A DNA stretch of 64,000 nucleotides from Sordariomycetes sp. S80-01Y. Its lineage: Eukaryota > Ascomycota > Sordariomycetes. Each line of letters starts with the position of its first letter. Within the stretch, counting starts at the first letter, position 1. Positions 7,417-26,887 of this stretch are shown in pieces. The notes below the pieces were generated by a model, which saw only the letters and a program-made list of their open reading frames with translations, was not told the DNA's origin and did not search any database. Position numbers and translations under genes: made by a program. The DNA lies in the NCBI GenBank assembly GCA_037042185.1, contig JAXQJY010000029.1, forward strand, positions 1,736,001 through 1,800,000, in the 5' to 3' direction.

Positions 7417-9890
7417 TCAATGCCCGTTCCCGGCCCCGTTCACACCGCTCCCGCTCCCGTTCCCATTGCTGTTGCTGTTGCCATTTCTTTGCTCACCGCT
7501 ACAGCATCCCTCGGACTGCTGGTTTCCAAAGGCCAGCCTGCTCATCCCATCAGCGGCCTCCAGCACACCCTTTCCTGCTGCAGCAACCTGGCTCGGCGTG
7601 CTGCAGTAGGAAGGCTTGACATCCATCACCGGGTTGTTCATGAAGAAATTCCTCGGCCGTAGCAACAGCGTGATGGGCTCTACCGGCATCACGGGGAAGT
7701 CCTCCGGGCTCGGAATGTGCGTGACGCCAAAGGTATGCCACAGCACGACGTCCGTGTCCTCGATGGACGTCTTGCCGTCTCCGATCCATTCTGGTAGGCC
7801 CGAGGAGGGCTCGCCAGAGGTTTGGGGCACGTGTCGACCTGCTGGCCAGAGGTGGTCGTCGCGGTCTGTCGATTGGTGACACGACATGGTCAGCATGGGC
7901 GCTCTCATTTTCTGACACCGAATGCGGCAACCCCAGACGCAGCCTTATCTGAGAGATCATCTCTCTGGCTATCAACGTCGCCAAGCGTATCCGCGCGTAC
8001 GATACGCGCGGACACTCACATCAGGGGAAAAGAAATAAGGGTAAACTCACATTTCGTTACGTGCACAGCATGTCTCGCAAAACCAGCCCTCTTCCACACC
8101 AAACTCCCTTCCTTGGGCAGCAGGTTCGGCACCTCGCGGCTCACAAGTTTGTAGCTGCTCGCCTTGCCGCTGTATGGGTGCTTCCGGCTGGTGTTGCATA
8201 TCTCCCAGGTCCGGCTCGTCGCGCCGTTGTAGTCGGTGCGCGATTCGCCCTCGGTGGCCAGCTTGGTGCGCTTTGCGTAGAAGGCGTTACCGTATTTGTT
8301 CTCCGCGCTGCCCACGGGCGCGTCAGATGGGACCGTGTCGGAGACGAAGACAGTGTTATTTGGGCCGTCGACGTTGGCATGCACACGGAGACAGAAGAGG
8401 TGTTGATGGTTGTGAGCGTTCACACCTGTTCATCGTCAGCACTCGTCTGTTTCACACTTCGAGAGACCGTCTACTTACCAGGGTAGACTTGTGTTCCCCA
8501 GCCCTTGGTGTCCTCGCCCTCATTCATAACATACGTGTTCAAGATTCCTGTCAGCTTGATCTCGGGCTGCACCGTCCCGTCCTGGTGGAAAATCCACTGG
8601 ATAGCATACTCGTAGTTCGCCGCGGTGAAGATCTGCTGCACGATTAACTTCCTCGCCCTCGTGACGATGCTCGAGTCATCTCTGAAGTCGGTGTGCTTGA
8701 AGAGAATGCCCGCGTCCTCTTCGTGGATGCAAATTGCGTTCTTGATCTCCCGAATGGTGCCGTCACGACGAGGGAAAGACGCGTCTAGATAGTGGATGCT
8801 GCCCTTGCAATCGCAGCCTAGGGAGAGGGAGTTGGTCATGTAGCCGGCGCCGTATTCGCCGAGATCAAAGGCGTGCTTCCTCTGGTGGGGATGCTCGGGG
8901 TTTCCACTGCGCCTGTCAGCCATGCCCCTTTTTTTTTCGGAAAGGGGTAGACTCACTATGGAACAACCATCTCTGCCAAGCTCAGCCGGTAGAAGATTGA
9001 TCTCTCGACACCCTTTTCAACATAGCGGATGTTGTTCAGCACAATACCTTCCCTGTAGTTGAAGCCAATATGGAACTTCCAGTTCTGCCACTCAATCTCC
9101 CTGCCGTTCAGCTTGAAGCTCACACCTTCCGGCTGCGTAACATAGATCGGCTTCAGATCATTCCTGTACCCACCGCTCTTCTCAACGCCCTCAGGGTGGT
9201 AGTTGATTGCCCTTCCCTCCTTCGGCACCGGTCTTCGCGTCTCCGGAACGTCGATGGCGATGATCTCTTGTTTGTTGGCGTCGAAGATGGGGCAGAAGTC
9301 GAGCGGGTACTGGTACTGGCAGTCATCGATGCTGGGGCGATAGTACATGAGGGCCTGTTGCAGGCGCACGCTGGAGCCGAAGCGTTCGTCGTAGCCGATG
9401 GTCCAAGCGTCGCAGTAGATCTTGTGCATCGAGTCTTCGGGGATGCCGGAGATGCGGCACTGCTCGATGACTCTGGGGTCATTGCGGCAGATATGTTCCA
9501 CGGCCATGAGCTCTTCGAGTGTGATCTGTTCAGCATTGAGCGACTTGCTACTTTTCAACCATTAATGGAATTGCGGCGTCTCACGATGGGTTGTACGCCA
9601 TCCAACATCTCCCACTTCACGATGCTGCCGTTTGACAGATCGACGAATCCATCATATACTTTCCCCTCTGCTCCGATGACGGTCACGTCCGCCATGCGTG
9701 CTGGTCGCGGAGCTTTGGCCTCATCCTCGAGCCACGCGACCATGTCGGCCTTGCGTGGCTCGAGGAGTGAGACAGCTTGGAAAGCGAGGGAGTCTCCATG
9801 GGCTTTCTTGACGATAGAAACGGCGGCGAGGATCTCATCAGAGACCAAGGGATCGAAAGGGTGAGGAGGGGCTGATGTTGCTGACGGCAT
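7417..9890 (-). CDS. Copper amine oxidase
   Basis: Primary-amine oxidase that oxidises R-CH2-NH2 to an aldehyde, ammonia and hydrogen peroxide, using copper and topaquinone. The model has 708 residues in five exons: 9890-9585, 9525-8957, 8906-8479, 8425-8051 and 7865-7417. All key residues are visible: the catalytic-base Asp306 in AFDLGEYG, the topaquinone precursor Tyr390 in TAANYEY, the copper ligands His441 and His443 in HNHQH, and His609 in GVTHIPSPEDFPVMP. The length fits the family. The Ser/Gly/Asn-rich tail is unusual. The protein begins without a signal peptide and ends without a clear SKL signal, so it is probably cytosolic or peroxisomal. Intron 4 is long (185 bp) and contains two perfect hairpins. 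GATA sites upstream suggest nitrogen control, which fits a role in using amines as a nitrogen source. Confidence 0.95.
7951..8012. repeat. Two perfect inverted repeats inside an intron
   Basis: Two hairpins lie in intron 4 of the amine oxidase gene. One has 10-bp arms at 7990-7999 and 8003-8012 with a 3-base loop. The other has 7-bp arms at 7951-7957 and 7959-7965 around one base. The intron is about three times longer than its neighbours. Confidence 0.8.
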
Positions 9891-11050
9891 GGCTACAGTC
9901 GGCTCTTGCCTGGTGGAATTGTTCAATTGAGTCAAATCAGTTGCATCCAAGAGATGAGTTGACGAACGCGTGGACGAAACCTTGAATGGCCATCAAGTTG
10001 TATATCTACTACCCGATCAACGACTCAGCCGCGGATTGTGATAACGCCGGGTTTCCCGTCTCCTCACACCACATCAATTTAGCAATTGCTAATAGTCAAG
10101 AACAGCCCGTCCCAATGTCCGATTCAGGTCATCGGCAAGAGAGCTTGTACAACGATTCGCGCGGTCTCCAACAGTCCGCACCAATTGATGCCCCCACTAC
10201 AGCTTCCCCTCATGATAAGGGTGGTCGCCAAGGGTCCGGTGCTGATAAGGGCGACCCCTCGAACCGACTGCGATAACACCGCGCCGCGGACTTTTAGTCC
10301 GATAGCTGCTAATTGAGTGAGCTCGTGTCGTTATCTGTCATGTGGTTCTGATGTGTCTCGAGCTGCTGGCGTTGATCTGCTTCTCCGGGGGCGGGTCTGC
10401 CATGCATCGGATACTGTTCTCCAAGCTCTCGAGCCACCACAGATTCATGTTGCTTGGTGCTAGCCTTTTGGTGGGATTGGAACATTGAATGCCGTGTCTT
10501 GATCTCATGCGCCCAGCAAATCCTCGGTGTTCTCTTGGTAGCCATGTCTGGTAAGAGACTCACAAAAAGAGCCTATTGGGGCTCAATGCCAATGATCACG
10601 CAAACTTTACCAGATGTCCAGGTGGGGTGTATTGCGGCGTCACAATGAAACGGCAGATCGACCTCGGGAGGAAGCCAAGACGATGCATAGGATACCTTCC
10701 GTTGCACCACCAATAGAATGGAGGGCCCTGGTTCCAGCGATCCCTCACCACTGGCGAAATCACCAGTGCACCTTGATCGTCGCCACGAGCAAAAGTGCGG
10801 TGCCCCAGACAGACTCGTACTTCATTCAACAGCTGTCCATTAGCCCTGGCTGTGCAACGTCATACTGCAACCTTTGCCGCATGTGGTCGCCATGCAAGAT
10901 GCACGGCGCTAGTTCCCAACCATCGAGGGGCACTGCCGACTGCAAGACAAGGACGCCACCCTAAGCCAGTCCGCATCACTGCGGCATTCATGATGACGAC
11001 GTACATGAGCAAACGTAGCTAATACTCCCTAGCGGAAGATTTCCAGTCGC
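9891..11050. other. Promoter side of amine oxidase and 3' side of the Zn2Cys6 gene
   Basis: There is no supportable gene. The half nearer the amine oxidase (to about 10335) is dense in GATA and CGGAC/GTCCG sites, listed separately. In the rest I see only short overlapping frames without motifs. Confidence 0.6.
10039..10335. promoter_or_regulatory. GATA and CGGAC site cluster upstream of amine oxidase
   Basis: Six GATA-type sites are visible: 10040, 10214, 10244, 10272, 10301 and the reverse TTATC at 10331. Two of them continue as GATAAGGGTGGTCGCC (10214) and GATAAGGGCGACC (10244). GTCCG occurs at 10117, 10174, 10234 and 10297, and CGGAC at 10287. The last two form the perfect inverted repeat CGGACTTTTAGTCCG (10287-10301). 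GATA sites bind AreA/NIT2-type nitrogen activators, and CGG half-sites bind Zn2Cys6 proteins. The site lies 150-450 bp before the amine oxidase ATG, which reads leftward. Confidence 0.6.
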
Positions 11051-13449
11051 TCATGACCAGCTGTCCAAGTCGAACATGCCAGGGAATGAGAGCAGCTCGT
11101 CTGCGCTCAGGGTCCCCTCTACGCCAGTGGCATCGCCTCCGTACATCTGCTGGGCTGCAAAGGGAAGTTCAAAACTGACGGGGCCAGGCGAAGCTGTGGG
11201 GATCTGCTGTCGGGTTGCGATTGATGATAAAGGCCGCTCGCGGGCAGGAGTAGCTCGTCTCGAAGCGAATCGCTGCGGCGACTGATTGCCACGCAGACGA
11301 GGGAACTCTTCGTTGATCATCTCTTCTATCATCCGCACGATGGAGCGGTGGACAATGAGTGAGCGAATCTTAGGGAGATGCTCCCGAATGGCCTCCGCTG
11401 AAGCCTCGGATACTTTTGTAGGAGGACGACTCGGCCTGTCCACAAGAGGTACCTCGCGTGCCAGGAGCTCGAAGACGTCCCGAAGGCAGTCTGCCTTGGG
11501 CCAGCGGTCAGCCATAATGGCCAGGATGTTTGAGCATGCCCTCAACGCGTCTGATACGTCGGGTGAGTCGTAGTTGTCTGTACGATACTCGGGCGGAGTC
11601 GCCCAGCAGCAGTAGAGCAACGTCACTCCAGACTGAAACTGCACTAGAAGCTTTGAGGCAGTCAGTATACACAACTCGAGCAACGCAAGGGTTAACGACT
11701 CACCCCAAGCCATGCTTGGGCGATTTGGCGATCCATTTGGCTTTTACGAAACATGAGACACGCTTGGCTGCTAGCTTGTATGGCCCAATCGCCCGCTGGT
11801 CCCAAGACGTTGTCCTTCGTCGGCCGATACAACAGGAGCAAGGTGTAATGGTAGATCATGGCTAGCCATCTTTGCGAAGAGTGGCCTTTGGCCTGGGGAT
11901 CAGAGAAATTCTGAACTCTCGACTTGTAGCTCTCGAGCTCATTCAAGATACGGACGCGCCAGTCGAGGGAGTCTTCGTATAGCTCCTTGTAGTCCCACCT
12001 CAGGGTGTAGTTGCATATCTCTGACTGGATGCGCCGACATTGCAAGATATGCAATGAAGAAGAGACGCAGGTATATACAGGCGCGTCCGGTAGCTCGACA
12101 TCTGCTGGAGTCCTCGCAGCCACTGCCTCAAGATCCTCATCGTCGATATTTGCGTACAGTCGTGATGTGATCATACTATCTGGCAGCGAAGGAGGTAGTT
12201 CATACGATGCCATGACGAGTCGATCTACGCAGTACGCAGACCAGAAGCACCGCCGCCGCACTTGGTTTTCGAGCCTGACCGCAGCATTAACTGGATCAGG
12301 TTCTGTCTCGGCAAGATGGAGTTGAAGTTGGGTGCAATGGCGCATGGTTGTAGAGGCGAGCGAAAGCACGCGAGGCGTCGAACTTCGGTGGAGCGCATGC
12401 ATGCTGAGTAACAGGTATGCCTGTACGTTGAGAATCTCGTCCTGTCGTTTGAAGACATCAGGCAAGAGAGAGACGCCGTTCTTGTAGAAAGTTCTGGCAT
12501 CCGACTGACCGACTCTCGGGAGTGACAGCATTAACAGAGCTGTCGAGTAGACTAGGTTGATGAAGAATCCCTGCCACGACCTAGCTGCAAGCTCCCCTGG
12601 CGGACAGTTCTTCCACTCCGAGTGCCATCTCATAAATGTTGTCCAGTGAAAAAAAGGGTATTGAATCTGGGCTCGGCCACGGTATGCCCCCAGGAGGAGG
12701 TCCTCGACCTCCGGAGGCATCGCCGCAACTAAGCTCTGCGGTAGGAATTCCCCCTCCCGGTAAGAAGCCGCATGCGTACTCGGTGACTTGGTCGATCCTA
12801 ACAAGTTTCCGTCGTCTCGTGCCGAAGGCGACGCCATCAGGCCGTAGAGAAGGTGGTCCAATCCAGAGTCTGAGTCGTCAGCTAGGGACAAGGCGCCTCC
12901 TGGTGATTGCTGAGAGTAGCTTCGCCGCGCATGGGATTGATCTGCTGGTGACACAGAGTTTGCATCCCCGACGCGCGCCATGTCGATGGCGTCCGATTGT
13001 CTGCGGTTTGCCATTGCGTCCCTTTGCATGGAAGAGTAAGCTGCGTTTGCCGCTTGCCGCCCATTGGACCCTTGACCACTGCTGTGAGTGAGGCGTCGTG
13101 CCTGGGCACCCGCTAAAGGGACATTGCTTCCAGCAGGCATGTGGTCCTGGCTCTGACGCGGATCTCGAGACTCGAGCTCAGCTATCCTCTCCTCGAGCGC
13201 CCGGACGTATTCACCCTCGACATGGGGACGCGGAGCAGGCTCTGTGGGAAGACACTCGTCACCGGACTTGAGACAGTTTGAGCATGGTCGTTTGTCTTCG
13301 CACTTCTGCTTGCGACCGCGACAACGGCTTCAAAACGTAAGCATGCGTCGGGGTTCATGCATGAGTGCCATCGCTTACCGACATGCTAGGACCCTTTGCC
13401 TCTTTGGAGGCGGCTCATCGCCATAGGTATCCTGTCGTTCATGATCCAT
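11051..13449 (-). CDS. Zn2Cys6 fungal transcription factor
   Basis: A 764-residue binuclear zinc cluster regulator with three exons: 13449-13379, 13327-11704 and 11650-11051. The zinc cluster is complete only after the first 51-bp intron is removed. Its cysteines are 23, 26, 33, 39, 42 and 49, with spacing C-x2-C-x6-C-x5-C-x2-C-x6-C, preceded by the basic stretch PPPKRQR. A short linker and coiled-coil-like segment follow (about residues 60-80). The fungal-specific transcription factor domain fills about residues 220-500, with the usual YPFFHW and RRRCFWSAYCVDR phrases. It sits between the amine oxidase and the lyase-like gene, both also on the minus strand, which makes it the natural candidate for their local regulator. 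That role is inferred from position only. Confidence 0.92.
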
Positions 13450-13880
13450 TGGGGGCTTGCTGTACCCGCGATGGCCTCGATCGTGAGCGAGTGAGACCCG
13501 TACTCATTTCAGGCAGCCGTAGGAGAACTTTCGGCTTTCAATTAGACGGCATGTGTCGTGCAAAGTGGGCAGTCGGGACATCTCGTGAGCGCAACATTGG
13601 AGGTGTGGTTGAACTCGGAGCCAGGCTGCGGGGATCCGCACATGGCTTAGGTGTACATAGCGTGTTCGGTGCTGTATCTGTAGAGGCGATAAGCCCTGAC
13701 AGCGGCGTCTGAGGCTGCACGCTAATACTCAATGGGAACAGGTCCGCTGCCACTCAGTAATTGGGACATTTTCACCCCAACCTCGTTCATCACATCGCGG
13801 CATATGGACGCACCAGAACATACTGTTCAGTAGTAGCAGTACAAGCACACTGGATGAATGAGTAGATTTACTCTACGTTT
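13450..13880. other. Intergenic region between lyase-like gene and Zn2Cys6 gene
   Basis: This 431-bp stretch must hold the promoter of the Zn2Cys6 gene and the 3' end of the lyase-like gene. I see one GTCCG half-site at 13742-13746 and no other recognisable element. Confidence 0.5.
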
Positions 13881-15508
13881 CTATTGCTTCTCGACAATTG
13901 GTTCCCCCGCCACAGTCTCGAAAAACGCGTCCGCCAGGTAACCTCCGCACCAGCTCAACTTCTCGAAACCATCGGCCATGGGCTTTTGCGCCAACGCAGG
14001 CGTTTGCACCTCGCGAACGTAGCCCGCGATGCCCTCCTCCGCCCAGAGCTTGCCGAACTGATCAGCTACCATGTTCAAGCCCTGCAAGCTCCAGATGGGC
14101 TGGACTTGCCAGACAACGCCCATCTTGGCCAAGTCAAGGTGCATTGTCTTGACCTGCTCCGCTGTGAAGCCGGCCTTGCCGTAGTCATAGTCGCCAGTGT
14201 ATCCGAAGGCGAAGAGGCGTTCGGGGTACACCTTGCGAATGGCAGTATGGAACTCGACTATGTCCTTCCAGACAGGCGCATCCATGCGGGCCCAGGTCAC
14301 ATCACCTAGGGGCGCGGCGGCCAGCGCGCGCTCCACGACGGCCTTGACGCTCGACTTGAACATGTACTGGCCCATTGCTGACCGCGGCAGCTCCCAGTCA
14401 AAGACGACTTCGGCTTTGATGCTCTTCGCAGCAATCGAACGGCGAGCTGCCAAGGAGCGGAACTGCTCCTTGCTTACCTCCGTCTCGTACGCGGCGTACT
14501 CGCTATCCGAGGCCACCGCCCTGGCAGCCTCGTCAAATGTTTTCAGACCAGCCTTTTGCTTCCACTCATTTCGGACAGCTTTGAGATCCTTTCCTTCGGC
14601 CTGAGCCTTGCTGAGGCAGTCCTTCAAGGGCTCGACCTTGGCTGTTGCACCGAGAACGTATTCATGGTCGCGATCATCTATGACGCTGGTGATGAATTCA
14701 GAGTGGTCGGTGTCGCAGCGACAGAGGAGCAGCGTCTCTGCACCCATGATGTCGAACTGCATGCGGACGGTTCGCAGCCTGTCGAGGTATTCACTGGTGG
14801 GCACAACCGTGCGTCCTTGGCCGACGGTGAACTTCTTCATTCCGATGGCCAGGTCGTCGATGTGAATCATGGCAACACCGGCGTCGACAAACTCCTTGGC
14901 CATCTTCATGGTGCTGGTCAAGCTGCCGAAGCCCATGTCGCCGTCGGCCACCACGGGGGCCAAGTAGTCCCAGTGCTCCAGCTGTGCGCGCTGCTCCTTG
15001 GTGTGGCGAAGACGAAATTGGCGCTGTCGCTGATCGTGCCACAGCTGGGACTTGACAATCTTCTGGACGACTTTCGGGACGGTGTCCCAGGGATAGTCGG
15101 CGTGGTCCATGCCTGGGATCGCAACTTCGGAGAACCCACAAAGGGCGCCGGACGCGTACACTGTCTGCTGGTGCTTCGCCATCTGGGATACAACAGTAGG
15201 GTCGGTAGTTCCGAAAGTCAACTCTGTTGTCCCATTCTTGTTGTGCTCGTGAAGCTGGTTCCAAAGCTTGAGAGCTTGGGTAGATGATAAGGAAGACGTA
15301 GCGTCGACGGATGTTCGCAACGCCGCGATTGTCTTCGCATCGTACGGTCTGTAACACGTGTCAATCCTTGTTCTCTTGAGATTCAGAGACGCAAACCTCA
15401 CCTCTTCAAGTGAGCTTGTCTAGGAGAGCTCCATTGTTTCTCGATGGCTGCCACATCCGCTTCAAACTTCTTCTGCTCTTCGTCGAGCGAGATATTGAGT
15501 TTAGGCAT
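13881..15508 (-). CDS. Isocitrate-lyase-like protein with altered active site
   Basis: A 524-residue protein of the long fungal isocitrate lyase type, with two exons: 15508-15402 and 15348-13881. The family N-terminus and the barrel are clear. The metal-site motif DADTG of true isocitrate lyases reads DGDMG here (Asp171, Asp173). The catalytic loop KKCGH reads KKFTVGQ (207-213), so the catalytic cysteine is missing. The substrate motif NLSPSFNW reads GYTGDYDY (418-425). The frame is open and long, and the fungal helical insertion is kept, so this is not a decayed copy. I infer either a lyase for a different 2-hydroxy acid or a non-lyase function, and not the glyoxylate-cycle enzyme. It is divergent from the aminotransferase at 16341, sharing an 832-bp promoter region. 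Confidence 0.85.
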
Positions 15509-16340
15509 TGCTGCTGCTGAGGATGTTCTTTCCGCTCAGTAAAGAGAAACGATCACGATCTGAATCTCGCAAATAACTTGAAAGTGATATAGAAAACTTC
15601 ACGATACAAAGTCAGACAAGGTGTTTCCGGGCGGAAGATAGAGATCTTAAGGGAAGCTTTTTGAAGAGGTCATGGAAGACGCGCCGAGGGGCAACCCAAA
15701 CGCGTCCAACCAACCCCTCTATCCATCGCTGGTCCGGACTTCCTGAGGCATGCAGCTAAGACCCAGTACAGAAATATGGACATTGGGACGCTTTCTCCGG
15801 GTTCCACGCACCGAGTCCGAAGCTTCGGCGTTGTCGCACAACCGCCTCCGATAAGGCTGGGGCGACTTACAATGTCCCCGGAAATGCGGGGCGCGGACCC
15901 CCTTGTAACAGTCCGCCCTGCCGATACCTATCACAGGTAAGTGCGTATCAAGGTTGTTACGAGGGTCATGGTGTAACCTGTAGCCGGTGTTACAAGCAGT
16001 CATGTGGCTCTTTCGCTAGTCGAGGCCGATGGATGCCAATGTTCGTACCATATCGGGTCTGACCCAGACCTACCAACGTCAACCTTGACTCGCATGGCGC
16101 AGTTAGTCGGCATGGTATCTCTTTATGCGCTGCTTGCTTGCACGTGAGGCTGATATCGACTCGATTTCCTTTCGCTAGATAACTCCATTCGCCAAGTTTT
16201 GCCTTTCCGCGTCCCCTCTCCTGCTATCGATCACTCTCTTGTCCTAAGCAGTAGCTGAGCCTGGCCATCCAACCCGCTACAAGTCCAGGCCTAACATCTT
16301 TCAATAAGTCATTCGTTTGATTTTAAAATTCAATCGCAAA
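15509..16340. other. Shared divergent promoter region
   Basis: This intergenic region lies between the lyase-like gene (leftward) and the aminotransferase (rightward). It has no gene. The regulatory cluster at 15732-15915 is described separately, and a further GATA site lies near 16179. Confidence 0.6.
15732..15915. promoter_or_regulatory. GATA and CGGAC/GTCCG cluster in divergent promoter
   Basis: GTCCGGAC at 15732-15739 is two overlapping half-sites. GTCCG at 15815 overlaps the 12-bp palindrome CCGAAGCTTCGG (15817-15828). CGGAC at 15894 and GTCCG at 15911 face each other across 12 bp. GATAAGGCTGGGGCGAC lies at 15850-15866, the same composite as upstream of the amine oxidase. Function is inferred. 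Confidence 0.55.
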
Positions 16341-17705
16341 ATGTCCAGGCATATTAACCTCCAGCTTGGCTGGCCTTCCCCATCGCTATTTCCAGCCACT
16401 CAAATCCTAGATGGCGCTGGCGGAATCTTGCAGTCCCAAAAGAAGACTGCCGCGGCACTCATCTACGGTCCTGACGCTGGCTACGAGCCTCTGAGGACGC
16501 ACATCGCGGAATGGCTGAGCACTGTCTACTCCGGCCAAGCCATTACCGCGGACCGCATCTGCGTCACCAACGGCGCGTCCATGAACTTGGAGAACATTCT
16601 CGCCAAGTTCACGGAGCCGGGTTATACCAGGAACATCTGGATGGTCGAGCCCAGCTACTTCCTCGCTTGTCCCATCTTTACGGATGCAGGCTACACGGGT
16701 CGTCTGCGAGGCGTGCCCGAGGATGATGAAGGACTCGACATTGGCTTCCTGCGCTCGGCTCTGCAGAAGGTCGAGGAGAGTGAGCATCCCAAGGAGCCAC
16801 AGACGAAAACGTTGAAGAGTCGATATCCTAGGCTTTACAAGCACATTATCTATGCTGTCCCGACGTTCGCCAACCCTAGCGCGAAGACCATGTCTCTCAA
16901 ACGGAGACAGGATCTTGTGAGACTTGCTAGGGAGTTCGACGCCCTGGTTGTAACAGATGATGTCTACGACGTCCTACGTTGGCCAGAAGATGTCGAGGGG
17001 GGCGTCAACCGCCTGCCGCCCTCACCACCCAGGATTGTGGATGTTGACCGGACATTGGACGGAGGACCTATGGACGACTTCGGCAACGCCGTCAGCAACG
17101 GTTCCTTTTCAAAGATCATTGCTCCCGGCGTGAGAACAGGTTGGGCAGAAGCCACGCCAGCATTCGCCTTCGCTCTGTCAACAGTCGGCGCGACTAAATC
17201 CGGCGGTTGCCCTTCACACATCGCAGCCACCTTCATAGATGAGATGCTCGCATCGGGCCAGCTGCAATCCCACATCAAGGACGTCCTCATCCCTACGTAC
17301 CGGTCTCGCTACATAGCCCTCTTCAATGCCGTCTCGACGCATTTGTCTCCCCTGGGGTTCACCGTTTCCACCGGTGAGCCGTACGCATACTCAAACGGTC
17401 TTTCCAACGGCGCCCACAGGAACGTCGCCGTTGCAGGTGGGTACTTCACATATCTGACCATTCCAAGCGATCTGCCAGTGGGGTCAGATGAACTTGCGAG
17501 GCTGGGGGCGGAGAAGTATAATTTGAAGTTTGCGTTTGGAGGGATGATGGCAGTTGAGGGGGACGAAGGAAGCATCGAGAGAGGACAGGGGGGATTTGGG
17601 AAGGGGATTAGGCTCTGCTGGGCATGGCATCCTGAGGATGAGATTGTGGAGGGAATTGAGAGGCTGGCTGATCTGGTGAGGGAGGTCAAAGCAAATAAGC
17701 AGTAG
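16341..17705 (+). CDS. PLP-dependent aminotransferase, class I/II (YER152C-like)
   Basis: A single-exon enzyme of 454 residues with fold type I PLP transaminase features. These are an Asn-containing substrate and cofactor region with TNGASMNLE, the cofactor Asp/Tyr pair in DDVYDVL, and the PLP lysine in NGSFSKIIAPGVRTGW. It resembles the fungal group that includes yeast YER152C, relatives of 2-aminoadipate and valine-pyruvate aminotransferases. The exact substrate is open. The ATG at 16341 was chosen over the frame's earlier ATG at 16317 because it has a better context (CAAAATG) and fits the family start. It is divergent from the lyase-like gene. Confidence 0.9.
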   Translation: MSRHINLQLGWPSPSLFPATQILDGAGGILQSQKKTAAALIYGPDAGYEPLRTHIAEWLSTVYSGQAITADRICVTNGASMNLENILAKFTEPGYTRNIWMVEPSYFLACPIFTDAGYTGRLRGVPEDDEGLDIGFLRSALQKVEESEHPKEPQTKTLKSRYPRLYKHIIYAVPTFANPSAKTMSLKRRQDLVRLAREFDALVVTDDVYDVLRWPEDVEGGVNRLPPSPPRIVDVDRTLDGGPMDDFGNAVSNGSFSKIIAPGVRTGWAEATPAFAFALSTVGATKSGGCPSHIAATFIDEMLASGQLQSHIKDVLIPTYRSRYIALFNAVSTHLSPLGFTVSTGEPYAYSNGLSNGAHRNVAVAGGYFTYLTIPSDLPVGSDELARLGAEKYNLKFAFGGMMAVEGDEGSIERGQGGFGKGIRLCWAWHPEDEIVEGIERLADLVREVKANKQ

Positions 17706-18115
17706 CAGAGATATCTAGTGTGGTTCGCTCCTCTGGAACATTTCGGTTCGATACCAGACGCACAATTGAAATATACCACTATCTATCTCAAACATTCTAA
17801 ACATCCAGATCTCGGTGAGCTGCTCCACCTTCATCGTGTCATAAACCCAGGGAGTTTTTGAATACAGCAGTCGGAAGAAAAGCTTCCAATCTCCAAATTT
17901 CCATTAATTGTCTTCAACCTTAGTATGAATAGGCTGACGTGCAAAGATAATAAAAACGGTCTATGGTGGTATATACTCGCAGACGTGCTCAAAACCACGG
18001 AAATCCACTCCAAGAGACCCTGGCCGACTGTAAATTCTGATAAATATAGTCTTCGAGGATTCCTTCAGTCCCCATCAATCCAGCCGGTAGCGAAAAAGAT
18101 GAAGCTAGAATAATC
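17706..18115. other. Intergenic, convergent 3' ends
   Basis: This 410-bp AT-richer stretch lies between the aminotransferase and the amidotransferase genes, which converge. I see nothing else in it. Confidence 0.6.
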
Positions 18116-19033
18116 CTAAGGCTGGACTGGAGGGGTCACCAAGCCTCCGTCTCCCGGCGCAAAGGCAGCCTGTCCACCCATGAAGAATCGAAACACGCAG
18201 TCTGCCCCCATAGGGGCATCATCATCAGCGTCAATGCTCTTCAGTCCTCTGTCCAGCCTCTCCTTGTCCCACTTTGCGCCGAAGACCTTGAGTGTCTCCG
18301 TGTTGATGAAACGATCGAACTCGAAGTGACCTTGGTACGTGAGAAGGCGTTCGGCGTGGTACACACCTTGAATGCGGCAGTGATCGCTGCTGCCGATATT
18401 ATGGAAATTCGTTGGGAGCGTGCCAGAAGCAGGCAGAACGACGTGATCTGCGTGGATCATCTGGAGCTTCATCGACTGTTTCGCCTCGTTGTTGGACCAT
18501 GTAGTCTGCCCGTCCTCGCTTGGCGTCGGAGGGAGAGTCTGCTCAAGAATACCACCTCCGCGTTTGGGTCCTCTGTGTAACAGGTCCTTAACAAACTTAT
18601 CCGTCAGACGGATCTCTTGAACGCCGAGCTCATATCCTCTTGGGTCCTTCTCAACTCTGACACTCGCATCCCTCAGCAAGCTCTGGCAAAGAATCTGATG
18701 GCCAAAGCAGCTCCCAAACATCTTGACCTGCGGGTAATCGTCCCAGATCATCTTGACGTAGCTGTCCAGCTTCTTCGCCCAGGCTAGATCGTCGTACGAC
18801 GAAGCTGCGGCGCCGGAGATGACGATGGCATCGTAGTCTGCTGGGTTGGCGGGATACTGATCCTGGACGACGTCGAATTCATCCGATATGATGCGGGTGA
18901 GGCCATTGGTGATGCGCCCTGCAGCCTGGGAGAGAAGGTTGTGGAAGATGCCGCCATATGTTGGATGAGTTGGGCGGACGGCGGGAACTGGGCTATCGGT
19001 GTTGAACATGGCGATGCGGATTGTGGTGGCCAT
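18116..19033 (-). CDS. Class I glutamine amidotransferase-like protein
   Basis: A 305-residue single-exon protein of the class I glutamine amidotransferase (GATase1) fold. The nucleophile elbow reads GSCFGHQ with the catalytic Cys at about residue 108. The His/Glu region reads YQGHFEF near residue 240. It has no synthase domain, so it belongs to the stand-alone group, which acts on glutamine or gamma-glutamyl compounds. In this group the known reactions include release of glutamate from gamma-glutamyl amides. An in-frame ATG at 19063 would add 10 residues, but the ATG at 19033 starts directly before the first strand and was preferred. It is divergent from the MFS permease gene. Confidence 0.88.
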   Translation of the reverse strand: MATTIRIAMFNTDSPVPAVRPTHPTYGGIFHNLLSQAAGRITNGLTRIISDEFDVVQDQYPANPADYDAIVISGAAASSYDDLAWAKKLDSYVKMIWDDYPQVKMFGSCFGHQILCQSLLRDASVRVEKDPRGYELGVQEIRLTDKFVKDLLHRGPKRGGGILEQTLPPTPSEDGQTTWSNNEAKQSMKLQMIHADHVVLPASGTLPTNFHNIGSSDHCRIQGVYHAERLLTYQGHFEFDRFINTETLKVFGAKWDKERLDRGLKSIDADDDAPMGADCVFRFFMGGQAAFAPGDGGLVTPPVQP

Positions 19034-19550
19034 TGTTGCGGCTATTGTGGGAGATCCCAGCACTGTCTCTGCTGTGCTCTTACCTGCCGTATTCCTTCCA
19101 GTTTGTCTAGGCGTTGTGAAAGTGGAGACGAGAGATCAGTAGACTAGCAAGCCTTCGCACTTGGGGAAGCTTTAATGAAAGAATTGCGGCCACGCTGTTG
19201 ATTGTCAAAGACAAGTAGCCAGGGGAAGTTCAATTTCCAACAACACTCGTTGTATCTGGTCAACCCCTCCTCAGCCATGGGTAAGATTTAGTTGACTCGC
19301 CCACGGGTAGGCGGCCGAGCATCGGAGACTAGCCGGCGTGGCGAGGAGGATTCTGAGGGTCTGTCAAAGACCCTCTTGTTCATAGGGCGCATGGTGAGAG
19401 TCTTAGTGAGGGTCCTGCATATCGATTGAGTAAGCCATGGGTGAGTGGTGTTTGCGCACTTCGGTTTTCGGAATTGCGAAGGTCTAGACGATGAGACCCG
19501 ATGGCATGAGATAGGAGGGCTGGATTGGGGTCGTCAACGTCCCCTAGCGT

Positions 19551-19604
19551 GATAGATAAGATAAGCGATAAGCCCCTTTTGGAACCATCGGACAGCAAAG
19601 TCCG
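19551..19604. promoter_or_regulatory. Overlapping GATA run plus CGGAC-N6-GTCCG
   Basis: Four GATA sites follow each other at 19551, 19555, 19560 and 19567, the last three reading GATAAG. After 16 bp comes CGGAC-AGCAAA-GTCCG (19589-19604). The sites are in the divergent promoter of the amidotransferase and the Dal5-type permease, a typical place for AreA/NIT2 control of nitrogen transport. Confidence 0.6.
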
Positions 19605-19860
19605 ACAGGGACTAGCGGCGCCGACACGAAGCCAAACGCCCCACCACATCATGCTTCGCACATGGCAATCCTTCCATCGGCGCCTCGTTGCCGTCGCTGG
19701 AAAGTCGGAGCGATGCTGCTGATATCCCATAGCCAGTGACAATCTTCACGCACCCCCGGCAGTTAGAAGCACCGTCACAGCGGCAAGCAGCGTTGTGGAA
19801 GCCCCGGGACAACCATCACGATTCAAGACTGCCTCACGCGACTCCACTGATACCAGCATG

Positions 19861-19872
19861 GATAAGGGTCGC
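19861..19872 (+). promoter_or_regulatory. GATAAGGGTCGC element
   Basis: A fourth instance of a GATAAGG element joined to GTCGC, about 300 bp before the MFS start codon. It is a compact form of the elements at 10214, 10244 and 15850. Confidence 0.45.
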
Positions 19873-20170
19873 TAGTCGCGAGGGCGCGCCCGCTTAGAGC
19901 GATAGACTGCTAGACTGACAGGGTAGGCTTCTTGGGTGCTGATACTGGCCCTCGAACCGCATCAAGGGTCCTAGTCACCTACACAGTGTTGCGCCCAGCC
20001 TCGTCCTGTGCGCAAGAACCATGTCAAGGGACATATAACAAGTCTTTGCCGATCCCGTCCTCGACTTGGAGCTTCCGTTCGCAATCACCATTATCGAAGC
20101 TCTTTCTGAAAACCACCCGTCACCCTTCCTGTTTGAGCAAGCCTTTGTCCTCCGACTGGTCACTACCACC

Positions 20171-21779
20171 ATGACCGACCAAAAGGACATCAAGCCATCC
20201 TTCTCGCCTGGCGAGATGGAAGAGTCCAACTCGTCCGTGGCGCCGGGAAAGGTCGAACCCCATGCCGAGCCCACCGATGGCGACGTCGCGGCTCGCTACG
20301 CCAACATGTTTAGCAATGGCGACTCCTACTCCCGTCGTGAGTGGACCAGGCTCCGCTGGAAGCTGGACATGCGCCTCGTGCCCCTTCTGTGGTTCAATGT
20401 CACGCTGGGTGCCATGGACAAGGTCACCACGGCCACTGCGGCCTTGTATGACTTCCGTGAGGATACGAAGCTTCACGGAGATCGGTACAGTTGGGTCGGC
20501 AGTGCCTTCTACGTGGGTTTCTCTCGCTCTGATGGTGCGAATTGGTCATGGCTGACAGATCCTGTAGTTTGGTTACCTGTTCTGGTGTCTCCCTAGCGGC
20601 AGTCTTTTGCAGAAGTTCCCAGTTGCAAAGCTCATGTTCGCCGTGCAGCTCCTCTGGGGCGGCATCCTCATCGCCACCGGCTTCGCAAACAACTTCCCCA
20701 CGCTCATTGCTCTGCGCGTCATCCTCGGTGCTCTCGAAGCTCCGATTGTTCCCGGTAACTTCCTCGTGCTTAGCATGTGGTACACTCGCCGCGAGCAGCC
20801 CATCCGTACCGGCCTCATGTACACTGGTCTCTCTGTGTGTTTTACTGGACCCATCGGCTGGGGCATCGGTTTCATGGCCGGAGAGCATCAGTGGCGGTCG
20901 ATGTTCTGGATCACGGGCGGCATGACCATCGTCTGGGCTTGTGTGATTGGACTCTTCCTGCCTGACAACCCGGTCAAGGCCAAGTTCGTCTCGGAGAGGG
21001 AGAAGGCCATCGTCATTGACCGTCTCCGTGCTGATCAGACTGGTGTTGAGAACAAGCAGTTCAAGAAGGATCAGCTCAAGGAGGCACTCCTGGATCCAAA
21101 GACTTGGCTCATGTTCCTCTTCCACGTCATGATCTCCATTCCCAACGGTGGACTGACCAACTTCGCTCCGCTGGTCATCCAGGGCTTGGGCTACTCTGCG
21201 CAGCGCTCGACACTTCTGATGATGCCCACTGGTATCATTCAAACGCTCTCATCCTATCTCTGCAACGGTGGCGTCTTCCTCACAGCCAAGTACCTGCCCA
21301 AGCGACAATGCCGAACAGCTTGGGTCCTCTTCGGCATCATCGTCGGCCTCATCTCGTCCGTGTTCCTCTACACCCTCCCCCTCGAAGACTACCACAGTCG
21401 CCTGGGAGCTCTCTATATGTCCTACTTCTACCTCGGCCCCTACATCGTCTCCCTCGGTATCAACACCGCCAACACCGCCGGACACACCAAGAAGGTCACG
21501 GTCAACGCCCTGATCTTCATCGCGTACTGCACGTCCAACATCATCGCGCCGCAGTTCTTCAAGACCTCGCAAGCGCCGCTCTATCCGTTGGGCATGGCGG
21601 CCATCCTAGCGAGCTACGTTCTGGCCATGATCATCATGATCCTGTACGCCACGTACTGCTGGTGGGAGAACAAGAGGAGGGATGCTGTTGATGCGACGAC
21701 TGGGGAAGTCCGACACACGGATACGGATTTCAAGGATTTGACTGACAAGCAAAACATTCACTTCAGGTATGTTTGGTAG
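20171..21779 (+). CDS. MFS transporter, allantoate permease (Dal5) type
   Basis: A 517-residue major facilitator of the anion:cation symporter family, with two exons (20171-20512 and 20568-21779). The 55-bp intron falls in the second membrane segment. Splicing gives the continuous segment YFGYLFWCLPSGSLL. About 12 membrane helices are visible, with the family phrases LRVILGALEAPIVPG and YTRREQPIRTG after helix 4. The C-terminal end DLTDKQNIHFRYVW is a family hallmark. Relatives carry allantoate, ureidosuccinate, pantothenate, nicotinate or dipeptides across the plasma membrane. The substrate here is unknown, but an organic acid or amide that supplies nitrogen would fit the neighbours. The first of the four ATGs near 20171 in context ACCACCATG was used. 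Confidence 0.92.
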
Positions 21780-22848
21780 AAATGGTTTCCTCACGGAAAG
21801 GGGGGATGTCAGCCCACTGTGGTACGATCTTGGATTTTCTACAGCTTTCATGGTAGCCTGTCATTTTACACTATATTTACAACGCTCATTTCCTATTGCA
21901 AAGATTTGATTACGCTCTGTATGAAACAACAATCGACTCCTCTCCAAAATTATTGCTCAATACGTAGAGTGCTTTCACATACAAAAGCATGTCTGAGCGT
22001 CTCTCAATAAAGAGCCGGCTACCCGCGGCTTCGCTAAGTGAAGTTTCTCTATGCAGTGACTAAAAGCTTCTGAACCATCTCCCCTTTCAGCCGAGTCCTT
22101 GACTGAGCAGGAATGTCCAGCAGCTTTCCCCAGATTCCCGCCCCTTCGCACCACGAGACCAAACCAGACACGCGAGCCCATGCCGACCAGCGTGGCTAAA
22201 AAGGCACGCCCGCATTGGCGCTGTTTTGGCATTTTGCGGGGAACCCTTGCGCCTCGACACATACACCCCTGTCTGTCCATGACTCGCTATCGGATAGCTG
22301 AGGCCGATGGAGAGGCGGACTCTGTAGTGCGATGGCAAACAAGGGGGGGTGGATGTACGTCACGACAGGAAACGATAGCTCGGATCCCTGGGGCACCGGT
22401 ATCGTCTGGCATATCATGGGAGGGTGTTGAACGATTACTCAAACGCTGACTCGGCTTGTGACTGACTGCAGAGTGGGCTTGAGGGTTGTCCGATGATACG
22501 GGGCCGGTCTTCCGCTCCGGATGCTGAACAGCGGCCAGGTCGGGGTTCCACTGAGTTTGCCGGACGGCGCAGATGCTGTGTCAGTTGGAGATGCATGTCG
22601 TGGTAGTTGTAGACGATGCATGAATTGGTCGTCTTATAGCTACTTGTGCGTGCTGTATGACTTCTAGCTACACCATCTGTCACGATCAATCTTTTCCCAA
22701 GAAACTCCTCAGAGACTCATTCACCCTTGACCTTGGGTCTATCTCATGTCTCTATACAGCACTTCTACCTGAACTTCGCATCTCATGCTCACGTATCATA
22801 TGAACTTCACCCAGACCTGAGCTCCCCTGAAAAGCCACATAACACATC
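21780..22848. other. Intergenic, promoter side of 5-oxoprolinase gene
   Basis: There is no gene in this 1.07-kb stretch. Unpaired CGGAC/GTCCG half-sites lie at 22316, 22488 and 22561, and a few GATA sites (for example 22292), a weaker form of the signals seen at the other promoters of this block. Confidence 0.5.
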
Positions 22849-25800
22849 ATGCCGTACCTCAACGGCAAGGACTCCCCAGAAGGAGGCAAAATCCGCATCG
22901 CCATAGACCGCGGCGGCACGTTCACAGACTGTCTGGGCATCCTCCCCGATGCGCCGCCCATCCTCATCAAGCTGCTCTCGTCGGACCCCTCCAACTACGC
23001 CGACGCGCCGACAGAGGGCATCCGGCGCATTCTCTCGCAGGCAACGGGGCAGGTCATCCCCCGCGGCCAGAAGATCGACACGTCGTGCATTGAGTCCATC
23101 AAGATGGGCACGACGGTCGCCACCAACGCCTTGCTCGAGAGGAGCTCGACGCCCTGCGCGCTGGTCGTGACGAGGGGTTTCAGGGATCTGCTGCGCATCG
23201 GCGATCAAACGCGGCCCAAGCTGTTCGACCTGAACATCAGGAGGCCCGAGACGTTATTTCGGGACGTGCTCGAGGTCGATGAGAGGGTCACGTTGCATGA
23301 TTCCACCGAGGATGCTACGAGTTTAAACGACAAGAGCCGGGAGAGCCTGGGCCTCAAAAAGGGCATCGGCGGCGAAGCCATCAGGGTCATCCAGCCGCTG
23401 GACGTACAAGGCGCGAAACGCGGTCTCCAGGCCCTCTTCGACAAGGGCGTCCGCGCCCTCGCTATAACCCTCCTCCACAGCTACACCTACCCCGAGCATG
23501 AACTCCAGCTCGCGGAGCTAGCTTCGGACATTGGCTTCTCCCAGATCTCCCTCTCCTCTCAGATCTTCCCCATGATCAAGGCCATCTCGCGCGGTTACAG
23601 CGCCACGGCGGATGCATACCTTACTCCCCTGACCCGAGCGTACGTGGACGGCTTCAGGAAGGGCTTCGTTGGCGATCTGGAGGCCGAGGGAGGGGCAAGA
23701 TGCGAGTTCATGCAGAGCGACGGTGGGCTGGTCGGATGGCAGAGCTTCAGTGGCTTGAAGGCCATCTTGTCAGGGCCGGCTGGGGGCGTTGTCGGTATGA
23801 GTAGAACTTGTTTCGACGAGGAGAGACGCACACCGATTATCGGATTTGACATGGGAGGAACCAGCACGGATGTTTCCAGGTTTGCGGGCACGTTAGAACA
23901 TACCTTTGAGTCCATTACGGCGGGCATAACAATTCAAAGCCCACAATTGGAGGTAGACACTGTGGCAGCCGGTAAGCCCCAAAATGCTAGAGGTTTAGCA
24001 CCGCGACTAACACGTAGCAGGCGGCGGCAGTATCCTCTCTTACAAGAACGGTCTTTTCCTGGCAGGGCCTGAATCAGCAAGCGCACACCCTGGTCCGGTG
24101 GCCTACCGAAAAGGAGGTCCTCTTACCGTGACAGACGCCAATCTGGTGCTTGGCAGATTACAGGCCGAGTACTTTCCTAAGATCTTTGGCAAGGAGGAAA
24201 ATGAGGCGCTTGACTACGAGGGAGCAAGGGCTGCCTTCGAAAAGCTGCTGCTTCAAGTCAACGAAGACCTCGTCGCGTCGGGGGCGAAGCCTAAGACAGT
24301 CGAGGAATTAGCACTAGGCTTCCTTCAGGTCGCCAACGAGACCATGTGTCGCCCTATCCGCGCCCTGACTGAGGCCAAGGGGTACCGGACTTCGGATCAC
24401 GAGCTTGCTGTATTCGGCGGCGCCGGTGGCCAGCACGCTTGCGCTATAGCCGCGAATCTAGGCATCGATCGCATCCTGATCCATAGATACTCTTCGATCC
24501 TATCGGCGTACGGCATGGCACTCGCCGACTTGGTCCACGACGTCCAGCAGCCGTGCTCGGTGGACCTCGAGCCCTCACTCGAGGAGCTCGACGCCCGTCT
24601 CAAAGATCTGGAGGGCACTGCAGCCGACAAGCTGGTCGCGGATGGCGCTTCAAGCAGCGCCATCTCGTTTGAGCATTTCCTCAATCTGCGATACGTCGGT
24701 TCCGACACGACCTTCATGATCGCGCGACCGGAGAAGGGATCGTGGGCGGAAGCTTTCACTGCGGAGCACAAGCGCCAGTTCTCCTTCATCATGTCCGGTC
24801 GTGACATCGTGGTCGAGAACATTCGAGTTCGAGCGACAGCTCAGAGCTCGTCAGTCGAGCCAGCATTCAATTTAGAGAAGCAACTATCCGCTTCACCGGC
24901 TGCCGAAGCGTCCGCCGACAAAATCTCGGATCGCGTCAACGTTTACTTTGAGCAGGGCTGGTCAGAGGCTCCGCTGTACTTCCTGAAGGCGTTAACCAAG
25001 GGCGAGATGGTTCGAGGACCAGCCATCATCCTCGACGACACGCAGACCATCGCAGTCAGCCCAGAGTCCAAGGCCATCATCCTGGAGCGCCACGTCGTGC
25101 TCGAGCTGGACCGCAAGACAGCAACGCAGCCGGTTGAGGAGGTCTCGTTGGAATCCAAGAAGGTGGACCCGGTGCAGCTCACGGTAATGGCCCATCGCTT
25201 CATGAGCATCGCCGAGCAGATGGGACATGCGCTTCAAAAGACAAGTGTTTCAGTCAACATCAAGGAGCGCCTTGACTTCAGCTGTGCGCTGTTCAGCCCC
25301 GACGGTCGTTTGGTTGCCAACGCACCACACGTGCCAGTCCATCTCGGATCGATGGAGCAGGCCGTCATGTACCAACACAACAAATACAAAGGCCAGCTGC
25401 GTCCCGGGGATGTCCTAGTAGCAAACCACCCCATCTCAGGAGGAACTCATCTTCCGGACATCACTTGCGTCACGCCCGTCTTCGACGACGAGGGCAAGGA
25501 CGTCATCTTCTACACCGCTTCACGCGGTCACCACCAAGAGATCGGAGGCATTCTGCCAGGTTCCATGCCGGCTGGCAGCGTTGAGCTGTTCGAGGAGGGC
25601 GCAGCAATAATATCTGAGTTCCTGGTCAGAGACGGTGTCTTCAACGAAGAGATGATCACGAGGGTGATGCTCGAGGAGCCGGCCCAGTACCCGGGCTGCT
25701 CCGGCACTCGCAAGCTGGCAGACAACATCAACGACCTGAAAGCACAGGTCTCTGCCAACGCGAAAGGCGCGTCCTTGGTTTCGGAGCTCATCGGCGAGAA

Positions 25801-26887
25801 CGGCCTTGGGACGGTGCACTTCAACATGCACGCGATCACCAACAATGCGGAGGCGTGCGTCCGGGACTTCCTTCTCAAGACACATGCCCAGACGGGCGGA
25901 AAGCCCCTTTTTGCTTTGGACCACATGGACGATGGAACGCCGATCCAGCTGCAAGTGACCATCAACCCAGAGGATGCAAGCGCACACTTCGACTTCAGCG
26001 GGACCGGCGAGGAGGGCTACCATTCCTTCAACGCTCCGCAAGCCATCACTCGCAGCGCAACATTATACGTGCTGCGGTGCCTCATCAACCAGGATATCCC
26101 CCTCAACGAGGGATGTCTGCGGCCCTTAACCTTCACCATCCCCGAGGGCTCGATCCTCAACCCCTCCAACACAGCTGCTGTCTGCGCCGGCAACCCCATT
26201 ACCTCACAGCGCGTGACCGACGTCGTCATCAAAGCCTTCCAAGCGTGCGCCGCCAGTCAGGGCGACTGCAACGTCGTCTCCTTCGGCATCGACGGCAATG
26301 TAGACGAGTCTTCTGGCAAGCTGGTCCCCGGGACTGGATTCGGCTTCTGCGAAACGGTCTGCGGCGGTAGCGGTGCCGGCCCGGGCTGGCATGGCACCAG
26401 CGGCGTGCACATCCACATGACCAACACCAAGATCTGCGATCCCGAGATCGCGGAGAAGAGGTACCCCATCCTGCTCAAGGAGTTCAGCATCCGCGACGGC
26501 AGCGGAGGCAAGGGCCGCTGGAACGGTGGCAACGGCATCCGTCGCGTCTATGAGTTCGGCAGGGACATGGGCTGCTCCATCGTCAGTGAGCGGCGCGTGA
26601 CGAGGCCGTACGGCATGAAGGGTGGCGAGGACGGCAGGTCGGGGGTGAATTACATCGTCAAAGGTGGTGAGGGCGGTAGATGGTGTCGCGTAGGCGGGCG
26701 CAAGGACTTCAAGGTGGCTAAGGGTGACTGGTTTGTTCTTGATACCCCAGGAGGAGGCGGCTGGGGGGCTCCAGGGGCCAGTGAGGGTGAAGGTGAAGGT
26801 GAGGCCGGCGAGGCCGGCGAGAAGAAGATTGCGGCTGAGAGAAGGTTTGTGAGCCAGTTCCAGCTTGCACAGGAGTCGAGCAACTGA
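22849..26887 (+). CDS. 5-oxoprolinase / hydantoinase (HyuA-HyuB fusion)
   Basis: A 1,329-residue ATP-dependent enzyme with two exons (22849-23971 and 24021-26887, intron 49 bp). The first half is the HyuA part, with two ATP-fold motifs: IDRGGTFTDCLG near residue 20 and GFDMGGTSTDV near residue 332. The second half is the HyuB part, from about residue 760, with VHLGSM, NHPISGGTHLPD and the glycine-rich segment near the end. The fused layout and length match eukaryotic 5-oxoprolinase (yeast OXP1, about 1,290 residues), which opens pyroglutamate to glutamate. Fungal genomes often carry several paralogs, and some may act on hydantoins, so the substrate is not certain. Its place beside a Dal5-type permease supports a role in nitrogen scavenging. 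Confidence 0.9.

Follow-up and report, generated by a model that had tools for sequence, protein, structure and literature searches.

Do seven neighbouring genes in the genome of Sordariomycetes sp. S80-01Y form one cluster for the use of a nitrogen source, or do separate units lie side by side? The genes occupy positions 7417-26887 of the window, a stretch of 64,000 nucleotides that corresponds to bases 1736001-1800000 of contig C12 (genome 30,874,049 bases, 16 contigs). They encode a copper amine oxidase (CAO), a Zn2Cys6 regulator (TF), an isocitrate-lyase-family protein (ICL-like), a pyridoxal phosphate (PLP) aminotransferase (AT), a class I amidotransferase (GAT), a permease (MFS) and a fused hydantoinase/5-oxoprolinase (OXP). 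An earlier reading of the sequence, here called the original prediction, had combined all seven into a candidate cluster for scavenging nitrogen from an amine or a gamma-glutamyl compound. The seven are probably not one conserved cluster. With a probability of roughly one half, we read the locus as a nitrogen-regulated catabolic neighbourhood, in which two modules are joined and the amine oxidase stands beside them.

Gene content and order

Gene models were built with GT-AG introns, and the main open frames were searched against Pfam (9 frames; for CAO, two of its five exons). All seven genes were present and intact, in the order claimed for them. Introns, together with the Zn2Cys6 and Fungal_trans domains, mark the DNA as fungal. 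The bounds of the row were exact as well, with the stop of CAO at 7417 and that of OXP at 26887. Two divergent pairs had been described and were recovered, ICL-like/AT (832 bp apart) and GAT/MFS (1137 bp apart). Between the seven genes no further open reading frame (ORF) was taken as a gene; small ORFs (e.g. 10596-10964, 19380-19745 and 22060-22449) were not searched.

Altered active site of the ICL-like protein

The ICL-like gene (13881-15508, minus strand; exons 15402-15508 and 13881-15348) encodes 524 amino acids and matched Pfam family PF00463 with an E value of 1.1e-112. The closest PDB entry was the isocitrate lyase 1dqu, presumably AcuD of Aspergillus nidulans (E 4e-93, 484 residues aligned). 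Comparison with 1dqu revealed that the catalytic motifs are replaced. KKCGH of the isocitrate lyase reads KKFTV in the ICL-like protein, SGWQ reads SGAL, IHIEDQ reads IHIDDL, IARTD reads LCRCD, NLSPSFNW reads GYTGDYDY and WQFITLAGLH reads WQVQPIWSLQGL. What the two proteins share is the Pfam family, the pair of lysines and the ARTD arginine. The acids of ADxD are also retained, and the Glu of IHIEDQ has become Asp.

In isocitrate lyase, the Cys of KKCGH is the general acid, and SGW and NLSPS bind the substrate, with NLSPS as the carboxylate clamp. The lysine pair, the ARTD arginine, the ADxD acids and the Glu of IHIEDQ belong to the half of the site that holds Mg and the 2-oxo acid. In the isocitrate lyase superfamily there are relatives that act on 2-oxo acids by hydrolysis of a C-C or P-C bond. 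Because residues of the Mg/2-oxo-acid half are kept, the ICL-like protein has probably retained the capacity to bind a 2-oxo or 2-hydroxy acid. Ordinary isocitrate lyase chemistry is unlikely, judged from the residues, since the catalytic Cys and His and the dicarboxylate clamp are lost.

The source genome was compared in the same way. It holds two other near-full copies of the family, on contigs C16 and C10, and both carry KKCGH, SGW and NLSPS. By eye, the C16 copy is of the ordinary isocitrate lyase type and the copy at C10:2235032, with its mitochondrial-type N-terminus, of the 2-methylisocitrate lyase type. The ICL-like protein is 36.7% identical to the C16 copy and 32.8% to the C10 copy, and these two are 45.0% identical to each other. 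The near full-length match to PF00463 and to the NCBIfam isocitrate lyase model TIGR01346 comes with absence of the KKCGH loop, SGW and NLSPS that mark isocitrate lyase. The ICL-like protein also has its family in common with the 2-methylisocitrate lyase type, but it lacks the KKCGH loop and NLSPS that the C10 copy retains.

Neither the ICL-like protein nor AT had a relative in scans of viral_contigs. A structure prediction for the ICL-like main exon and five exon pieces from the second fungus described below was discarded (pLDDT 43.4, pTM 0.26). The open-licence PMC literature yielded nothing on a fungal isocitrate lyase lacking KKCGH or on this gene combination, which does not imply absence from print.

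Linkage of AT, ICL-like and TF in a second fungus

Relatives outside the source genome were sought by scanning genome_contigs (84,980 bacterial and archaeal species) with six short peptide patterns from the ICL-like protein, a search that reaches close relatives only. The scan gave one locus, L045 (NYXK01000116.1, 39445-53337), on an 81,565-base contig of a metagenome-assembled genome (MAG) titled Deltaproteobacteria. The presence of introns and of a Fungal_trans domain in its genes leads us to regard it as fungal DNA placed in the wrong bin. The bin is 7.3 Mb in size, holds part of this second fungus and lists the L045 contig as C120; gene linkage and the altered site were compared with one relative in an incomplete bin. 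Contig C153 (L059) of the same bin also has a fungal look by eye. A Tc1-like transposase ORF, without a Pfam match, was recognised by eye on the L045 contig.

At L045, relatives of AT, ICL-like and TF are adjacent. AT and ICL-like again stand next to each other and diverge, as they do in the window, and TF adjoins ICL-like with its orientation flipped. The window AT (16341-17705, plus strand, one exon, 454 amino acids) is a PLP fold-type I enzyme with an Aminotran_1_2 match and the segment NGSFSKIIAPG read from its sequence. It is 52.5% identical to the L045 copy, as against 39.9% to its nearest paralog in its own genome. The window TF (11051-13449, minus strand; exons 13379-13449, 11704-13327 and 11051-11632; 758 amino acids; Zn_clus and Fungal_trans) is 32.8% identical to its L045 relative over 756 aligned columns (E 8e-115).

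The altered site was found in both fungi. The L045 ICL-like protein reads KKFTN, SGAL, GYTG and IHIDDL, replacements of the kind seen in the window copy. Across the segment that contains KKFT, 34 of 42 residues are identical (81%), compared with 40-53% over the aligned parts of the four other exon segments. That the KKFT segment is the best kept of the five suggests that the changed site is held by selection, and that the function has changed rather than decayed.

The linkage expected in relatives of the source fungus was thus conserved for AT, ICL-like and TF; CAO, GAT and OXP were left without a match on the 81.6-kb contig. In the whole 7.3-Mb bin no CAO match was found, OXP matches occurred only on contigs C102 and C33, and there was one GAT match, on C164. 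Beside the L045 unit lies an aldolase-like gene, assigned by eye (L065 1033-2281), whose two pieces had no Pfam family. The unit is also flanked by a second class I/II aminotransferase, identified by Pfam (L064 7484-8815).

Recurrence of OXP with MFS

OXP (22849-26887, plus strand; exons 22849-23971 and 24021-26887) is a fused hydantoinase A+B of 1329 amino acids, with Pfam matches to the N, core and C parts of Hydantoinase_A and to Hydantoinase_B. Fusion of both in one chain, as found here, is the arrangement of 5-oxoprolinases of the OPLAH/OXP1 type. The closest solved chain is named N-methylhydantoinase. The ATP motifs of 5-oxoprolinase are given as DxGGTxTD, DxGGT and GxxPGP (PMC8453981). 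Measured against that list, OXP contains DRGGTFTD and DMGGTSTD, and its third motif reads SAHPGP, with the first G changed.

The neighbouring permease gene (20171-21779, plus strand; exons 20171-20512 and 20568-21779; 517 amino acids) had been called Dal5-type. Membership of MFS_1 was confirmed by Pfam; placement in the Dal5 branch is a guess, as the best NCBIfam match, TIGR00893, reached 191.6 bits and lies below the cut-off of 395.

The genome contains seven OXP-type loci including the window, three of them on contig C9 and one matching only in part and carrying a stop. At least 91 loci (106 pieces merged) resemble the window MFS, a lower bound from 103 of 152 candidates scored. An MFS gene lies within 10 kb of OXP at 4/7 loci, or 3/6 with the window left out; 91 MFS loci would predict 0.065 per locus (binomial tails 0.0005 and 0.005, respectively). 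Three of the four loci with OXP and MFS, including the window, also have a TF. The locus at C16:3.446-3.456 Mb (L040 3108-8410 and L041 1-3296) has GATA-rich promoters and brings together an MFS, a fructosyl-amine-oxidase-like FAD enzyme, a Fungal_trans_2 regulator and OXP. The kinds of parts are like those of the seven-gene row, except that the amine-oxidising enzyme is one unrelated to CAO. The two others are C9 0.439-0.450 Mb (MFS, TF and OXP) and C9 0.237-0.243 Mb (MFS and OXP). Linkage of CAO with MFS was not used, as it depended on distance (1/6 at 10 kb, 3/6 at 12 kb, 4/6 at 15 kb).

A comparable combination has been described in wine yeasts, where a 17-kb segment derived from Zygosaccharomyces bailii (region B) holds a TF, a 5-oxoprolinase and an MFS together (PMC7212421). 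The MFS is described there as of the D-galactonate/nicotinic acid type, and the five listed genes, unlike the window, include no AT, ICL-like, GAT or CAO. The recurrence in the source genome together with the yeast segment indicates that the OXP/MFS module is known in kind.

Promoters and regulation

HGATAR motifs are the usual sites of fungal nitrogen regulators. In the five cluster promoters there were 22 in 4,629 bp, compared with 31 in the 19,621 bp that a rough gene list leaves as non-coding elsewhere in the window (P 9e-6). Against a stricter control free of ORFs (23 in 9,924 bp) the enrichment was retained (P 0.0017). This GATA enrichment supports nitrogen control. Single promoters were compared with 200 shuffles. 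The CAO promoter holds six HGATAR, at 10039-10336 (shuffle mean 2.27; six reached in 1.5%), and the divergent GAT/MFS promoter (19034-20170) holds seven (shuffle mean 2.10; seven reached in 0.5%). The five in the divergent ICL-like/AT promoter (15509-16340) are borderline (5.5%). Five promoter stretches from three other OXP loci, with limits set by hand, contain 39 HGATAR in 5,575 bp.

For the Zn2Cys6 regulator, the pattern CGG-N10-CCG was noticed before testing and is treated as a candidate only. It was, post hoc, the most enriched of 75 triplet classes, with 5 of its 13 window copies in cluster promoters. One copy lies in the ICL-like/AT promoter (15798-15813), two in GAT/MFS, two in OXP (22291 and 22499, spanning 22291-22514, by pattern search) and none in CAO or TF. 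In the GAT/MFS promoter a GATA array (19509-19571) stands beside the palindrome TCGGA-N8-TCCGA, which contains a CGG-N10-CCG (19589-19604); array and clean palindrome adjoin at 19550-19604, and the second copy is at 19678. In the L045 AT/ICL-like promoter, the pattern was among two classes with two copies. As the binding site of the regulator it is a weak candidate. A general shared spacing of CGG pairs across the promoters was rejected, as 196 of 300 shuffles reached it. The original prediction left its shared promoter motifs unspecified; HGATAR is enriched across the five promoters together, and the TF and OXP promoters do not show this individually.

Identities of CAO and GAT

CAO (7417-9890, minus strand) was spliced by hand from five exons (9585-9890, 8957-9525, 8479-8906, 8051-8425 and 7417-7865) to give 708 amino acids, with Pfam matches to Cu_amine_oxid and to its N3 domain. 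The best PDB match, nearly full length, was 3sx1, 'Peroxisomal primary amine oxidase' (E 1.4e-256). The best solved relatives, 3sx1 and 1a2v, are primary amine and methylamine oxidases, which we take to be from yeast. In copper amine oxidases NYEY is the consensus for the TPQ cofactor, and HQH and a third His are the Cu ligands. NYEY, HNHQH and the third His were all read from the CAO sequence. In contrast to 3sx1 and 1a2v, CAO has an extra low-complexity C-terminus ending in NGH, without an SKL-type peroxisomal signal by eye. By its match to the best solved relative CAO is an ordinary primary amine oxidase, and it may be independent of the other modules. The genome contains five other CAO loci.

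GAT (18116-19033, minus strand, 305 amino acids) matched GATase PF00117 marginally, with 23.9 bits against a cut-off of 22.8. The Cys-His-Glu triad of class I amidotransferases was recognised by eye, with the Cys in GSCFGHQ and the His and Glu in GHFEFD. The closest PDB entry was 9k7i, 'Gamma-glutamyl peptidase 1', presumably a plant protein. The two are relatives among class I amidotransferases with the Cys region in common, at an E value of only 1.6e-7. It is possible that GAT is an amidotransferase with a specificity other than that of gamma-glutamyl peptidase. The genome holds no close GAT paralog, only two weak partial matches.

Elsewhere in the window, a single open frame of 1390 amino acids (38797-42969) has glycine/serine-rich repeats and, by eye, a likely signal peptide. 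Its product is perhaps a secreted or cell-wall repeat protein.

One cluster or joined modules

A single seven-gene cluster was rejected on the searches of the second fungus, that is, on one relative in an incomplete bin, and the CAO promoter without a candidate regulator site has so far told the same way. The nitrogen-catabolic theme of the original prediction has fared better. It agrees with the GATA enrichment, with the primary amine and methylamine oxidases related to CAO, and with the other OXP loci that have an MFS, two of them also a regulator, and GATA-rich promoters. The amine/gamma-glutamyl pathway itself is plausible but unproven.

From this gene set we infer the substrates, the order of reactions and the split of roles as follows; one regulator would control all parts. 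AT and ICL-like, as a divergent pair with a Zn2Cys6 regulator of their own, would make up the first module. AT would convert an amino acid to a 2-oxo acid. The ICL-like protein would bind this acid via the partly retained Mg/Arg half of its site and break a C-C bond without a Cys general acid. The second module would comprise the MFS permease and the 5-oxoprolinase-type lactamase, with GAT facing the permease. Here, a gamma-glutamyl or lactam compound would be imported and cut, and its ring opened, to yield an amino acid such as glutamate. CAO would free ammonia from a primary amine, possibly as an independent nitrogen gene.

A number of results weigh against joined modules under common control and against a changed lyase. 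The ICL-like protein passes the equivalog model TIGR01346 with 345.8 bits (cut-off 275.9), so that an automatic pipeline would label it isocitrate lyase. Because the L045 contig lacks matches to CAO, GAT and OXP, and MFS pieces about 2.5 kb past its TF show no similarity to the window MFS at E 1e-4, the two modules are seen joined in the source genome only. As MFS loci were counted as a minimum, the number expected next to OXP is set somewhat too low, and the tails would weaken with a fuller count. Taken alone, the TF and OXP promoters are not enriched in HGATAR relative to shuffles. The candidate site CGG-N10-CCG is missing from the CAO and TF promoters, occurs also in two other OXP loci and is rarer across the window than in shuffles (13 vs 20.2); its nominal P of 0.0016 becomes about 0.12 after correction.

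A serious competitor, which on balance we consider somewhat improbable, is that two or three unrelated neighbours (the AT/ICL-like/TF unit, the OXP/MFS unit and a free-standing CAO) act on separate substrates, and that nitrogen regulation mimics one pathway. The second fungus links only the first of these units, OXP accompanies MFS at three other loci whose inspected stretches show neither AT nor ICL-like, and CAO, with five further loci in the genome, has no CGG-N10-CCG in its promoter. However, all seven genes are consecutive, and the candidate site is present in the ICL-like/AT, GAT/MFS and OXP promoters. In addition, the lack of a close paralog sets GAT apart from a gene drawn by chance from a large family.

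A further reading, an unlikely one, takes the ICL-like protein for an isocitrate lyase duplicate that is decaying or has lost catalysis, with the cluster working without a lyase. Loss of the KKCGH Cys and His, the SGW Trp and the NLSPS segment would fit such decay, as would an apparent one-base frameshift in the L045 copy, which may be an error of the draft MAG assembly. Yet the substituted loop is the most conserved of the five segments, most of the new residues are identical in the two diverged fungi, and the 524-amino-acid frame of the window copy is intact. Very improbable is a small biosynthetic cluster whose specialised product derives from an amino acid, in which MFS would export and the ICL-like enzyme would run in the condensing direction. 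Such clusters typically combine a Zn2Cys6 gene specific to the pathway with a transporter and a C-C enzyme of a non-standard type, as this locus does, but the Pfam run on the frames of the seven genes found no NRPS, PKS, terpene or oxygenase domains, and nitrogen-releasing CAO, OXP and the GATA-rich promoters fit catabolism better.

Beyond the reading of two joined modules and an amine oxidase, we put forward a tentative proposal, somewhat less likely than not. The KKFT proteins could be an undescribed enzyme class in the isocitrate lyase family, in which the general-acid Cys and the half of the site that binds succinate have been swapped and which would act on the 2-oxo acid from AT by cleavage or hydrolysis. 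Together with their dedicated regulator they would define an unknown fungal pathway of amino-acid catabolism, joined here to a permease/oxoprolinase module by which a gamma-glutamyl or lactam compound would yield the amino acid.

For the source fungus, the recurrence of OXP with MFS, the frequent regulator and the GATA-rich promoters suggest several parallel routes for scavenging lactam or pyroglutamyl compounds. The AT/ICL-like/regulator unit, present in two fungi, offers a small and testable handle on a nitrogen source. The ICL-like lyase is the one to follow up. Automatic annotation is liable to be misled by a family member that still scores as isocitrate lyase in the standard profile with its catalytic Cys gone, and a new reaction may lie behind such a protein.

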